From the NCBI RefSeq assembly GCF_003315485.1, contig NZ_QNSE01000010.1, positions 124,001 to 188,000 of the forward strand: a stretch of DNA of 64,000 nucleotides. The letters are read 5' to 3'. Made by a program: the position numbers and the translations under genes. Shown piece by piece: positions 50,495-55,916 of the stretch (position 1 is the stretch's first letter; every line of letters starts with the position of its first letter). The stretch comes from Marinomonas rhizomae. GTDB lineage: Bacteria > Pseudomonadota > Gammaproteobacteria > Pseudomonadales > Marinomonadaceae. Below the pieces are notes generated by a model that worked only from the letters and a program-made list of their open reading frames with translations, had not been told where the DNA came from and did no database searches.

Positions 50495-51799
50495 TTACCC
50501 AAACATAGTATTAGGAAGATAAAGTACAATCTGCGGGAAGATAATCAACAAAGCCACCGCCAAGATCATCATCAGCCAGAAAGGCAGAACTCCTCTAAAG
50601 ATGTCACCTAACTCCACGTTTGGTGCGACCGATTTTACGATGAAGACATTAATGCCAACAGGAGGAGAAATTAAGCCCATTTCAAGAGTCAGAACCGTCA
50701 GCACTCCAAACCAAATCGGATCTATCCCAAGTGATACAATGATAGGGAAGAAAATCGGCAAGGTCAGAACCAGCATAGCGAAGCCTTCAAGAAAGCAGCC
50801 CAGCACAAGATAGATTGCAAGGATTAGAATAAGCGTTCCCGTTACGCCCAACCCCAATCCAGACAACAGCTCACCTACCGCCGAAGGAATATGACTAAGC
50901 GCCATAAATGGGTTAATCAAATGAGCCGCAATCAAGATAAGCATCACAGTAGCCGTTGTGACAACCGCATCCCGAGACGCATGCCAAAGCGTTTTTAGTG
51001 ACAATGTACGAGTTACAAAACCAACCAAAACCACCACACCAGCACCTACGGCAGCCGCTTCAACTGGTGAGAACAACCCGCCGTAAATTCCGCCTATCGT
51101 CAGCAATATCACCAAGACAATCGGGCCAGCACCTATTAACGCTTTCACTTTTTTACGTAAGCTGGTTGCCGGTCCAGCTGGACCATATTCAGGACGGAAC
51201 CAACAAATGACGGTGATCACTAAAATGAACAACATCAACAGCATGATGCCGGGCAAAACACCCGCCAAGAACAAGCGACCAATACTTTGCTCAGTCAAGA
51301 TGGCATAGATAACAAAACCAGTCGAAGGAGGAATTAATATACCAAGCGTACCACCAGCCGCAACGACACCTGTCGACAGCCTTTTGTTGTATTTAAAACG
51401 GTCCATTTGACCCAAAGCTACCTTACCCATGGTCAATGCTGATGCAACTGACGAACCAGATAGCGCCGCAAAACCACCGCAACCAATCACCGTGGCCGAA
51501 GCCAATCCGCCACGTAGCTGTCCGATAATAGCATACGCCGCATCATAGAGTTTTCGGCTCATTCCAGTTATGGAGGCAACATTCCCCATCAGAATGAACA
51601 GTGGGATAACAACCAATTCAGGCGATGAGGCTAAAGTGAAGGTTTCTGATGCTAGTAAACTTAATGCGGATCGGCTGCTATCAAGTATTGTAATACCCAC
51701 AAATCCCACGAAAAACATAGCAAAAGCCACGGGAATACGCAGCACCAGCAGACCGAACATGATCAAGGCGCCAATAAAACCAATCAATGATGCACTCAT
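50495..51799 (-). CDS. TRAP transporter large permease (DctM), aromatic cluster
   Basis: A 434-residue membrane protein with about 12 helices. VIPLFILMGNVASITGMS, ALSGSSVASALTMGKVAL, ILIPPSTGFVIYAI and GLISPPVGINVFIV are DctM features. Last gene of the ring-cleavage operon. It overlaps the dctQ gene by four bases. It probably imports an aromatic carboxylate such as protocatechuate or gallate, given the dioxygenase genes. Confidence 0.92.
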   Translation of the reverse strand: MSASLIGFIGALIMFGLLVLRIPVAFAMFFVGFVGITILDSSRSALSLLASETFTLASSPELVVIPLFILMGNVASITGMSRKLYDAAYAIIGQLRGGLASATVIGCGGFAALSGSSVASALTMGKVALGQMDRFKYNKRLSTGVVAAGGTLGILIPPSTGFVIYAILTEQSIGRLFLAGVLPGIMLLMLFILVITVICWFRPEYGPAGPATSLRKKVKALIGAGPIVLVILLTIGGIYGGLFSPVEAAAVGAGVVVLVGFVTRTLSLKTLWHASRDAVVTTATVMLILIAAHLINPFMALSHIPSAVGELLSGLGLGVTGTLILILAIYLVLGCFLEGFAMLVLTLPIFFPIIVSLGIDPIWFGVLTVLTLEMGLISPPVGINVFIVKSVAPNVELGDIFRGVLPFWLMMILAVALLIIFPQIVLYLPNTMFG

Positions 51800-52317
51800 G
51801 CTGCGTCTCCTTTGTCCGTGTCTACTTTACGAACGTCACGACCTGATAAGGCCAGCTCAATGGCACGTAATGTCATGCCAGCTGCGGTGATCAAAGCAAA
51901 GATAGAAAGCCCATTTTGGAACCATGCCTTAGGTATAAGTAGAAGGTTGGTCGAAAGGTTCAACATAGTTGAAATCTTAGCGCTTTCATTTACAGCATAA
52001 GCAATGCCCACAAAGATGACGGCACCAAGTAATGCGGAAAATATATCGATTAAGTGGTTAAGCATCACCGGATAGCTTCGTTCGAAAAGATCAACTGCGA
52101 TATGACCACCCTGACGATCACACAGAGCCATTGCACCGAAGAGCAAAATAACCATTGTCATGGTAACTATGTCCTGCGACCCATAAAGCGGTGACCCTAA
52201 CGCGCGGCCAATGACATCCGCAAGAATAATGATCACCTCAAAGATTAGACCTAAGGCGCCCAAGGCAGCGGACAGGGAAATAATCCCATCCGCCAGTTTA
52301 CGAATGATAGCAAGCAT
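51796..52317 (-). CDS. TRAP transporter small permease (DctQ), aromatic cluster
   Basis: A 173-residue protein with four helices and the DctQ core (VIGRALGSPLYGSQDIVTMTMVILLFGAMALCDRQGGHIAVDLF). Its stop overlaps the dctM start (ATGA), and it begins 3 bp after dctP ends. It forms the membrane unit with DctM. Confidence 0.9.
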   Translation of the reverse strand: MLAIIRKLADGIISLSAALGALGLIFEVIIILADVIGRALGSPLYGSQDIVTMTMVILLFGAMALCDRQGGHIAVDLFERSYPVMLNHLIDIFSALLGAVIFVGIAYAVNESAKISTMLNLSTNLLLIPKAWFQNGLSIFALITAAGMTLRAIELALSGRDVRKVDTDKGDAA

Positions 52318-52320
52318 GAA

Positions 52321-53301
52321 TTACTTGCCTTCCATTGCTTCAAGCGTCGCTGTGCCATTGACGCTTTTTACATAAGACTGAACCACACCAGAAACAGCCT
52401 TAGTAAACGCTGCTCTCTCATCATCGATTAAGTCCGTTATTGTATTTGCATTATCGGCCCGAGCCACTTCGAGCGCTTCAGTAGCCGTTTTTAACCAAGC
52501 ATCTTCTGCACTTTTAGATAGCCCAGCACCACTAGCTGCGTCAACGGCAGCCTTTTGACTCGCAGTTAACCCATCATAAACTCTGCGATTAAGTACCGTA
52601 TAAAAGACAAGACGGCCTAATGGCGCGCCCAGAGTGAGAGAATCAGCCACTTCGTCAAGTTTGAAGTCTTTTAGGGTTGATGCTCCTGTAATAACACCAT
52701 CAATAAGGCCAGTTTGCATGGCATTATAAATCTGACTAGCTGGCATTTGCACAGGGGTTGCACCTAAGGCACTCGCTACTTTTGCGGCAGTTGCACCAGC
52801 AACACGAATTTTAAGCCCAGCTAAGTCTGCAGGTGTGCGAATCACTTTATTACGCATGATGAAAATATTAGGTTCGGAAGTCCACAATGCCAGTGGTTTA
52901 GTACCCGGAAATTCACTATTTAAATGTTTATCATAGACTCGCCATAGTGCTTCGTAACCAGGCATATCCTCAGGAATTGCACCGGGTAATTCAGCTATCA
53001 TTGTTTTACCAAACTGTGACGAGGTGTAACCAGGTAAGCCCCAAGACATATCCGCCGCACCTTGCAAAACACGCACATATTGCTCGGCAGGCCCTGCGCC
53101 CAGCTCGCCGCCATGATACCCGCGAACAGTAAGAGAACCATTTGTGGCAGCTGACAAATCTGCATTTAACTTTTCAATCACCGATGTATTAATGGTGTGG
53201 AACGGCGGAGTGAAGCTGGCGAACTTCAATTCCTCAGCAAAGACTTGAGTGGATAATGCAATGGCTGCTGAAGTAGCAATAATGAATTTATTTAGTTTCA
53301 T
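52321..53301 (-). CDS. TRAP transporter solute-binding protein (DctP), aromatic cluster
   Basis: A 326-residue periplasmic protein with a signal peptide (residues 1-22, ending STQVFAEE). The DctP pattern includes LTVRGYHGGELGAGPAEQ, GLKIRVAGATAAKVASALGATPV and MQTGLIDGVITGAS. GGGAG lies before the ATG. It is 170 bp downstream of the SnoaL-like gene and shares the direction of the LigA/LigB genes. The ligand is inferred to be aromatic. Confidence 0.88.
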   Translation of the reverse strand: MKLNKFIIATSAAIALSTQVFAEELKFASFTPPFHTINTSVIEKLNADLSAATNGSLTVRGYHGGELGAGPAEQYVRVLQGAADMSWGLPGYTSSQFGKTMIAELPGAIPEDMPGYEALWRVYDKHLNSEFPGTKPLALWTSEPNIFIMRNKVIRTPADLAGLKIRVAGATAAKVASALGATPVQMPASQIYNAMQTGLIDGVITGASTLKDFKLDEVADSLTLGAPLGRLVFYTVLNRRVYDGLTASQKAAVDAASGAGLSKSAEDAWLKTATEALEVARADNANTITDLIDDERAAFTKAVSGVVQSYVKSVNGTATLEAMEGK

Positions 53302-54654: not shown

Positions 54655-54660
54655 TGTGAT

Positions 54661-55515
54661 TTATTCTCCCTTTTTATCTACATTTTCGTATATCAGATGC
54701 CCCAGCGCCGTATTAGAAACAGGTACATGGTAATGACGATGAATTTCGTTAACCTCCTGATTCAGCGCACCACGCATGATTAACCACATCACCATTTCAC
54801 TCCCTTCTGTTCCGGATTCTCGAATATATTCAACTTGAGAAATCACCCCTAGCTTCTCATAGTCATTCTTTAAATCATCCAGAAAAGCGAGGTCCCACTC
54901 TTGGTTAATCAAGCCAGCACGCTCTCCCAGCAATTGATGGCTCATGCCACCCGTTCCCCAAATCTGAATATTTAGGTCTTCTGAAAATTGCTCTGCTGCA
55001 GCTCGAATCCCTTTACCCAAAGCTAGACAACGATCTCCCGTTGGCGAGGGATAAACCACGGTATTGACGGCCAAGGGAATAACTTGGCAAGGCCACTCTT
55101 CCACTTCTCCAAACACCATAGACAAAGGCACGGTAAGACCATGATCCACGTCCATTTCATTGACAATCGTCATGTCAAAGCCTTGCTTTATTAAAGACTC
55201 GGTAATATGCCACGCTAGTTCCGGCGCGCCTTTTACCGTAGGAACAGGACGAGCACCATAACCTTCATCAGCTGGGCGATATTCCTCCCCACAACCAATC
55301 GCAAAAGTTGGAACCACTTTCATATCAAACGCTGTCGCATGATCGTTGTAGACTAAGATGACCACATCTGGTTTTTGCTCGCGAATCCATTTTTTAGTGA
55401 ACTGATAGCCATCAAATATTGGCGCCCACTTTTCATCGCTACTGTCACCCTTATCAATAATATGTCCAAGTAGCGGAATATGAGAGGTTCCTAACCCACT
55501 GGTGATTTTGGCCAT
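54661..55515 (-). CDS. ligB: Protocatechuate 4,5-dioxygenase beta-chain-like (LigB family)
   Basis: A 284-residue catalytic subunit of a class III extradiol dioxygenase. It is strongly like Sphingobium Lig[10 protein letters not shown] (first Fe-ligand His), [15 protein letters not shown] (second His), [25 protein letters not shown] (acid-base His) and [15 protein letters not shown] (Glu). It opens protocatechuate, gallate or a similar catechol between C4 and C5. Its start overlaps the alpha-chain stop by one base. No LigC-, LigI- or LigJ-type genes follow, so the downstream path differs from the classical one. Confidence 0.93.
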
Positions 55516-55916
55516 TATTGCTTCCCCTCAGATGAGTTACTCACAACATAACGATTCCCTGCCGGTGAACGACCACCACGGCACATCATCTCGATGTATT
55601 CATCAACGGATAAATTAGTCATGGTGGAAACGGCTGCCGCCACACTTAGTCCATCGCTCGAACTAATTTTGACGAGGTAATAAATATTGCCGCCAAGGGC
55701 AATAAGTTGACTAAAATCGCGAGCTATCACAGCTTTTTTTTGCGCTTCCATCATGGGCCAATTATCTAGATAGGTACGTTCATTTTGCTTAAACGCCGCT
55801 CGATTAGATTCTTGCATTAAAGACATACAAAATTGATTGAGGTGAAATCCTATTCTGACCATATCGCCGTCGAACACGGTCGTGCCAGGAATGTCACTGT
55901 AAGGCTTATTATTCAT
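55515..55916 (-). CDS. ligA: Protocatechuate 4,5-dioxygenase alpha-chain-like (LigA family)
   Basis: A 133-residue small subunit. It keeps the LigA segments [30 protein letters not shown] and the C-terminal [14 protein letters not shown], which caps the active site of LigB. First gene of the operon LigA-LigB-hydrolase-SnoaL-DctP-Q-M. It diverges from the double-HTH LysR regulator across about 190 bp. Confidence 0.92.

Follow-up and report, generated by a model that had tools for sequence, protein, structure and literature searches.

A candidate 3-O-methylgallate operon combining LigAB, an alpha/beta hydrolase and a SnoaL protein in Marinomonas rhizomae

Gene content of the operon

We analyzed a 64-kb stretch of the genome of the gammaproteobacterium Marinomonas rhizomae (64,000 nucleotides, contig NZ_QNSE01000010.1, positions 124,001 to 188,000; hereafter 'the window'), which belongs to an assembly of 4.42 Mb in 34 contigs, and we focused on an operon at window positions 50495-55916 that encodes a LigAB-type ring-cleaving dioxygenase together with an alpha/beta hydrolase, a SnoaL-fold protein and a TRAP transporter. 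The evidence set out below indicates that the operon is probably a module for 3-O-methylgallate (3MGA), a breakdown product of hardwood lignin. Rivers bring syringyl lignin units to the sea, and few strains have so far yielded genes for degrading them.

The open-reading-frame (ORF) list gives the gene order ligA-ligB-hydrolase-SnoaL-dctP-dctQ-dctM, all on the minus strand, with successive intergenic gaps from ligA to dctM of -1, 6, -4, 169, 3 and -4 nt; that is, the first four genes form a compact block that 169 nt separate from the TRAP genes. Terminator-like sites are in excess (14 vs. a shuffle mean of 6.0, sd 2.9), with none in the gap between SnoaL and dctP, and promoter-like sites show no excess (7 vs. 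a shuffle mean of 10.9). The order of genes described in a first-pass annotation of the same DNA is thus borne out by ORFs and family scores.

The dioxygenase belongs to the type II extradiol LigAB family, and both of its subunits pass curated protocatechuate 4,5-dioxygenase models. The alpha subunit, LigA (55515..55916), scores 150.5 bits against TIGR02792 (cut-off 108.6) and aligns to 1b4u_A; the catalytic beta subunit, LigB (54661..55515), scores 459 bits against NF009903 (cut-off 317) and 253 bits against the LigB Pfam model (cut-off 26.3). In an alignment to 1b4u_B, the window LigB retains the SYK-6 LigB motifs SHIP, YNDH, DVDHG, GMSHQ and EG.E, which hold the iron ligands and catalytic His and Glu residues. 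His127 and His195 have been named as catalytic residues of SYK-6 LigB (PMC3962378).

The hydrolase (53932..54654; PF12697, 61.1 bits vs. cut-off 26.3) passes general alpha/beta hydrolase models, whereas its scores against the listed NCBIfam models all fall well short of the cut-offs; across 24 aligned homologues, S68 and D188 are invariant and a GHM motif is nearly so. The SnoaL/NTF2-fold protein (53471..53935; SnoaL_4 PF13577, 45 bits vs. cut-off 24) has five residues, D27, R46, R57, H74 and R138 in window numbering, that are invariant in 22 aligned homologues. Comparison of this protein with PDB sequences gave no usable match (best E 0.28), and AlphaFold confidence was low, with a mean pLDDT of 52.9 for the SnoaL protein and of 59.0 for a hydrolase-SnoaL fusion, the SnoaL half of which was below 50. 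Since the PDB offers no usable match, the isomerase role proposed below is drawn from a proposal made for Pseudomonas sp. NGC7 and from gene context.

The three TRAP genes encode the periplasmic binding protein DctP (52321..53301; PF03480, 121.3 bits), the small permease DctQ (51796..52317; PF04290, 59.3 bits) and the large permease DctM (50495..51799; PF06808, 318.6 bits, and TIGR00786), all with scores over cut-off. PDB matches of the transporter gave no confirmable ligand, and a literature search for its substrate was likewise without result; the transporter probably imports an aromatic acid of the 3MGA route. Divergent from ligA, on the plus strand, lies a LysR-type gene (56059..57330) with two helix-turn-helix (HTH) stretches (HTH_1, two stretches, and LysR_substrate, scanned from 56107), which is likely to encode the operon's regulator.

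Conservation, gene fusions and dioxygenase lineage

We assessed conservation in 48 Marinomonas genomes and in 13 named Marinomonas loci that may overlap in species with the genome set; ORF-table counts were used for Marinomonas only, since in high-GC loci overlapping false ORFs hide real genes and make such counts unreliable. The SnoaL gene is present in 17 of the 48 genomes, and in all 17 carriers LigB, hydrolase and SnoaL are adjacent and in the same order, followed by DctP in 15. The LysR gene lies divergently beside ligA in 13/13 named loci, and is split in one. The closest named matches to the window LigB are from Marinomonas species, with M. polaris at 95%.

Two kinds of gene fusion occur among the carriers. 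Hydrolase and SnoaL form one open frame in 5/17 genomes. Among the 13 named loci, those of M. shanghaiensis, M. arctica, M. pontica and M. profundimaris have the two in a single frame of 390-399 aa, and the one such fusion that was tested shows both Pfam domains. In one carrier (G037) it is LigB that is joined to the hydrolase, in a 533-aa frame in which both domains exceed their cut-offs. With fusions on both sides of the hydrolase, we argue that dioxygenase, hydrolase and SnoaL protein share one route. Next to the LigB-hydrolase fusion of G037 (L154:8519-10460), the LysR gene with twin HTH stretches recurs in truncated form and is accompanied by a transposase-like ORF (named by reading), which suggests that this locus has been rearranged. 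In M. rhodophyticola (L051:6862-8038) two overlapping ORFs stand in place of a single hydrolase-SnoaL frame, and DctM is likewise split, reflecting either sequencing error or decay.

The hydrolase and SnoaL genes also occur together outside Marinomonas. We examined 10 plasmid regions around hydrolase homologues. Six of them (US6-1, TomTYG64, RAC03, RL4, PP1Y and V4) carry the hydrolase with metF, purU and an aminomethyltransferase-family, O-demethylase-like gene, which we take to be DesA/LigM-like, and the same six have an NTF2-type SnoaL homologue within ~8 kb. A ligAB pair is also part of the cluster in US6-1, PP1Y and RL4, and vanA and vanB lie 4 kb from the hydrolase cluster in TomTYG64. 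Identity to the window proteins in US6-1, TomTYG64 and RAC03 is 41-44% for the hydrolase and 32-36% for SnoaL. On plasmid pPDL2, five consecutive genes are hydrolase, NTF2-type gene, ligB, ligA and LysR, and Roseomonas mucosa has ligA, ligB and hydrolase together, with VanA- and VanB-like genes ~6 kb further on. An alpha/beta hydrolase between ligB and ligC of Novosphingobium pCAR3, considered as a further counterpart, belongs to a different subfamily (25.7% over 214 aa) and was rejected.

In genome searches with the window SnoaL protein as query, the window genome was the sole match among 369 genomes of the class; with the US6-1 homologue as query, 20 of 398 genomes of the phylum, the window genome included, gave matches, mostly weak. 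Within short loci around those 20 matches, a hydrolase homologue was present only in the window genome and in two gammaproteobacteria of one genus, G783 and G620, in both of which vanA-vanB adjoin the SnoaL-hydrolase pair. In seven longer genome regions, vanAB accompanies SnoaL-hydrolase in these two and not in the other five; one of the five has SnoaL and hydrolase flanking a LysR-type gene, another has SnoaL close to an O-demethylase-like gene but no hydrolase, and in the remaining three such a hydrolase is missing or is a weak match 5 kb away.

The dioxygenase itself falls within the lineage of the SYK-6 LigAB. The window LigB is 62.2% identical to SYK-6 LigB (278 aa) and 44.2% to DesB, and in a tree of 46 of 80 LigB loci plus 16 other loci (hits shorter than 200 aa left out) it lies inside the SYK-6 LigAB clade. 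All 14 Marinomonas LigBs are monophyletic within that clade with support of 1.0, and their placement beside the sister group is weak (0.33). The pPDL2 LigB branches outside the clade, which means that more than one dioxygenase branch is associated with the hydrolase-SnoaL pair.

Val92 of the window LigA aligns with Phe103 of SYK-6 LigA. Among 102 rows of the LigA alignment (hits shorter than 70 aa left out), 87 best matched the window or the SYK-6 LigA, with Phe at position 103 in 72 and Val in 15, the Val rows being the window, 13 named Marinomonas and the second US6-1 LigA. Val is therefore found in all 14 Marinomonas operon LigAs examined, and Phe in 72/73 other SYK-6-type LigAs aligned. 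The second US6-1 LigA sits in the O-demethylase/hydrolase/NTF2 cluster, and the other US6-1 LigA keeps Phe; the PP1Y LigA, from the same sphingomonad cluster type, also has Val, and the Novosphingobium LigAs of SYK-6 type seen here have Phe except in the US6-1 and PP1Y clusters. The US6-1 and PP1Y LigBs nest among sphingomonads, apart from Marinomonas, so that, if LigA shares the history of LigB, the change from Phe103 to Val arose at least twice. In SYK-6 LigA, Phe103 faces the C5 group of the substrate, and mutants at this position, of which V, T, L and H were active, had raised activity on gallate and 3MGA (PMC10094722). Val at position 103 is a hint, not proof, of 3MGA use.

Metabolic context and proposed role

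There is no ligC, ligI, ligJ or ligK beside the operon in the window ORF lists, as the first-pass annotation had stated. Its further suggestion that the classical lower pathway is lacking does not hold: LigC, LigI, LigJ, LigK and a 4-oxalomesaconate (OMA) tautomerase are all present on another contig of the same genome (C13). LigK and LigC were searched genome-wide, with the true copies on C13; LigI, LigJ and the OMA tautomerase were found by reading C13 and then confirmed, and LigI and LigJ copies outside C13 were not searched for. The order on C13 is a second ligAB pair, LigI, OMA tautomerase, LigK and LigJ, with LigC and a third ligAB pair close by. LigC is 66% identical to Diaphorobacter LigC, LigI matches a solved 2-pyrone-4,6-dicarboxylate (PDC) hydrolase at E 1.7e-106, LigJ matches a solved 4-oxalomesaconate hydratase (2gwg) at E 1.5e-143, LigK scores 363.1 bits (cut-off 304.5) and the OMA tautomerase scores 531.6 bits against NF033377 (cut-off 440). 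The first-pass annotation had named a complete lower pathway elsewhere, together with dispensability of the hydrolase and SnoaL protein, as evidence that would speak against it; the former is what the genome contains. The window LigB is 43-44% identical to both C13 LigBs, which are 67% identical to each other; the operon thus holds a third, different ligAB pair. A Gfo/Idh/MocA gene of the window (37303-38514) was considered as a LigC and rejected, at 24% over part of the query vs. 66% for the C13 gene. The ligAB pair near LigC (L015:9550-17537) is accompanied by genes named by reading as shikimate dehydrogenase, type II dehydroquinase and a dehydroshikimate dehydratase-HPPD-like fusion, and reads as a quinate/shikimate-to-protocatechuate island.

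A possible source of 3MGA lies on contig C9, where a VanA-type gene (C9:211255-211851; PF19112, 167.9 bits vs. cut-off 23.5) has an adjacent VanB-like ORF and, by reading, a GntR-type ORF. No DesA/LigM-type gene was found in the genome (best match 27%, E 4.6e-5). The VanA-type gene is present in 17/17 carriers vs. 16/31 other Marinomonas (Fisher p 0.0003, relatedness ignored), and LigK over cut-off in 17/17 vs. 21/31 (p 0.009, relatedness ignored). A Marinomonas isolate grew weakly on syringate in a test done once, reaching an optical density of 0.307 at 6 d and 0.334 at 10 d; the paper (PMC7540876) names M. communis as the isolate's nearest type strain in the running text, and M. brasilensis in a table. 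M. communis carries the operon (L061). Among the papers listed in literature searches, which cover few subscription journals, there is no report of 3MGA catabolism in Marinomonas and none of mgaC or mgaD in the 3MGA sense beyond the NGC7 paper described next.

The closest published counterpart is the operon vanA1B1, mgaAB, mgaC and mgaD of Pseudomonas sp. NGC7, reported in July 2025 (PMC12314914). In NGC7, the LigAB-like MgaAB opens 3MGA to CHMOD, the alpha/beta hydrolase MgaC converts CHMOD to CHMA, the SnoaL protein MgaD (pfam13577) is proposed to isomerise CHMA to OMA, and GalD, GalB and GalC finish the route; deletion of mgaAB abolished growth on syringate, and an mgaC mutant turned syringate into PDC at ~95% mol/mol, the cyclisation of CHMOD to PDC having a half-life of ~70 min (PMC12314914). 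The Marinomonas operon unites the same four gene types in one cluster, kept in 17/17 carriers, and in both systems the OMA branch is supplied by separate genes, with tautomerase, hydratase and aldolase present in the Marinomonas genome. The systems differ in that the Marinomonas dioxygenase is of the SYK-6 LigAB lineage, whereas MgaA and MgaB are GalA-like (21% and 41% identical to SYK-6 LigA and LigB; PMC12314914); in that vanA1B1 lies inside the NGC7 operon and VanAB on C9 in Marinomonas; in the TRAP transporter and LysR gene on the flanks of the Marinomonas module; in the gene fusions of Marinomonas relatives; and in that LigI, present in the Marinomonas genome, was not found in NGC7.

Two further systems bear comparison. 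In Novosphingobium aromaticivorans DSM 12444, LigAB cleaves 3MGA to CHMOD, and DesC and DesD are proposed for demethylation and isomerisation to OMA, the same steps that we propose here (PMC6888825, PMC8091115); one LigAB is needed there for both vanillate and syringate, in contrast to the separate LigAB tied to hydrolase and SnoaL in Marinomonas (PMC8091115). An extra LigAB-type pair beside the main one is found in both organisms, but LigAB2 of N. aromaticivorans, ~33% and ~42% identical to the main LigA and LigB (PMC8091115), was outside our tree sample, whereas the window pair falls within the main SYK-6 LigAB clade. The classical protocatechuate 4,5-cleavage operons (lig, pmd, pcm) share the LigA and LigB subunits with the window operon, but their ligC, ligI, ligJ and ligK have counterparts on C13, with other ligAB pairs, and not in the window operon.

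The presence of the mgaABCD gene types, their constant order, the fusions, the O-demethylase-like and van neighbours, Val103, and the occurrence of VanA and LigK in the carriers make an mgaABCD-like 3MGA module of syringate catabolism the most likely role of the operon, and we consider this role probable. From the observed gene content, order, conservation, fusions and residue pattern, together with the lower-pathway genes and the VanAB-type pair, we infer every substrate and reaction that follows. The VanAB encoded on C9 would remove one methyl group from syringate, yielding 3MGA; the operon LigAB would cleave the 3MGA ring, giving the methyl ester CHMOD; the alpha/beta hydrolase, in the role of MgaC, would hydrolyse CHMOD to CHMA and methanol ahead of cyclisation to PDC; the SnoaL protein, in the role of MgaD, would isomerise CHMA to OMA; and the OMA tautomerase, LigJ and LigK encoded on C13 would convert OMA to pyruvate and oxaloacetate. 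LigI on C13 could salvage PDC that still forms, and, given its presence, a hydrolase mutant would be expected to be strongly affected only in a ligI-deleted strain. The proposal of the first-pass annotation that hydrolase and SnoaL protein process the ring-cleavage product is thus the most likely one, but the pathway type, which it took for a new variant, has already been published as mgaABCD (PMC12314914); its suggestion of a differing, methylated substrate agrees with methoxylated 3MGA as the best fit. With the pathway type known since 2025, what is new here is the SYK-6-lineage dioxygenase with Val103, the fusions and the marine setting.

Several observations weigh against a 3MGA role. VanAB lies outside the operon, on another contig, and the link of VanA to the operon is weak within LigK-positive genomes (17/17 vs. 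16/21; Fisher p 0.053, relatedness ignored). LigC is present in 17/17 carriers (in two pieces in one), so none of them shows the module working without the classical pathway. The likeness to MgaC and MgaD is one of gene type; the enzyme roles of MgaC and MgaD are themselves termed putative, being based on mutants, and an mgaD mutant still reached about half of wild-type density (PMC12314914). The Roseomonas mucosa region has no SnoaL homologue, and two of the 10 plasmid regions (Sphingomonas sp. R1 and Niveispirillum) lack such hydrolase neighbours. As to position 103, the RL4 LigA, from the same sphingomonad cluster type as US6-1 and PP1Y, keeps Phe; in the alignment, the LigAs encoded on C13, one of which lies inside the classical operon, have Met and Val there. 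Moreover, LigAB of N. aromaticivorans converts both 3MGA and protocatechuate well (PMC8091115); as its lineage has Phe as far as seen, Val is not needed for 3MGA conversion.

The strongest alternative is that the operon encodes a third isozyme of protocatechuate 4,5-dioxygenase, supplied from vanillate or 4-hydroxybenzoate, with the product passing through C13 LigC and LigI and the hydrolase and SnoaL protein in accessory or repair roles. The curated models passed by LigA and LigB, the LigC of all 17 carriers and the activity of N. aromaticivorans LigAB on protocatechuate (PMC8091115) are in keeping with such an isozyme. However, two other ligAB pairs are already available on C13, Val replaces Phe103, and the invariable pairing of hydrolase with SnoaL, like the fusions, points to a product that requires both proteins. 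CHMS, the protocatechuate cleavage product, has no ester for a hydrolase to act on. We regard this alternative as unlikely. Less probable again is a gallate module, in which ring opening of gallate by LigAB would yield OMA directly, and gallate esters or OMA tautomers would be the substrates of the hydrolase and SnoaL protein: mutants of SYK-6 LigA at position 103 also raise gallate activity (PMC10094722) and the dioxygenase paired with the hydrolase on pPDL2 is annotated as gallate dioxygenase. Yet an OMA tautomerase is already encoded on C13, and, where their context was seen, homologues of the hydrolase have O-demethylase-like or van genes as neighbours. Least probable of all is a formate-releasing protocatechuate route, in which the hydrolase would split a C-C bond of CHMS to give formate and 4-carboxy-2-hydroxypenta-2,4-dienoate, the SnoaL protein would hydrate the latter and LigK would yield two pyruvates, a scheme in line with a hydrolase fold that includes meta-cleavage-product hydrolases (weak PDB match 1u2e, E 1.4e-6) and with the action of LigK-type aldolases on 4-hydroxy-4-methyl-2-oxoglutarate. 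The models that fit the hydrolase best are PcaD- and MenH-like, with every score far under its cut-off, the homologues occur in methoxy-aromatic contexts, and NGC7 mutants indicate an ester-hydrolase role for the same gene type (PMC12314914), all of which makes this route very improbable.

Returning to the 3MGA module, we put forward, more tentatively and at somewhat less than even confidence, that a substrate-channelling unit from 3MGA to OMA evolved in Marinomonas: a LigAB of SYK-6 lineage would have been retuned to 3MGA by a natural change of Phe103 to Val (separately in one sphingomonad lineage) and physically coupled, with fusions, to a CHMOD esterase and a CHMA isomerase, such that the labile CHMOD would be hydrolysed before the side product PDC could form. 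If the 3MGA reading is correct, marine gammaproteobacteria gain a defined syringate route, and ring-cleaving dioxygenases from separate branches have acquired the same hydrolase-SnoaL pair as partners. The Marinomonas proteins would then provide natural tests of whether LigA position 103 sets C5-substituent preference, as in the SYK-6 mutants, and of whether a dioxygenase-esterase fusion keeps CHMOD from cyclising to PDC, and could be useful for producing PDC or pyruvate from hardwood lignin.

Neighbouring genes and other features

Beyond the LysR gene, three associated genes lie next to the operon in the window and also, wholly or in part, in 5/13 named loci. They encode an aldehyde dehydrogenase (57414..58874, minus strand; PF00171, 521.5 bits), which possibly oxidises aromatic aldehydes; a XylR/MobR-like sigma-54 activator with a V4R domain (59198..60961, plus strand; PF06505, PF02830 and PF00158); and a short-chain dehydrogenase/reductase (SDR) of the coniferyl-alcohol-dehydrogenase type (61055..61822, minus strand; NF009092, 405.8 bits vs. 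cut-off 242). In G783, the 20 kb that hold vanA-vanB and the SnoaL-hydrolase pair also have homologues of the activator (54%), the aldehyde dehydrogenase (54%) and the SDR (63%).

In one carrier with a fused hydrolase-SnoaL frame, LigC appears as two overlapping matches (G027:C20:3982-4915), through either frameshift or assembly error. Elsewhere in the window, a sugar-acid-type cluster at 39653-49503, unrelated to the aromatic operon, includes a confirmed HpcH/HpaI aldolase and IlvD/Edd dehydratase and, by reading, TRAP genes (39653-40723, 42611-43897 and 43901-44449), a GntR-type regulator, an aldehyde dehydrogenase and an SDR. An 875-aa protein encoded at 19065-21692 has no PADLOC match and has a weak NTPase match (PF24883, just over cut-off); near it lie two tRNA genes of equal score (22129-22201 and 22288-22360).

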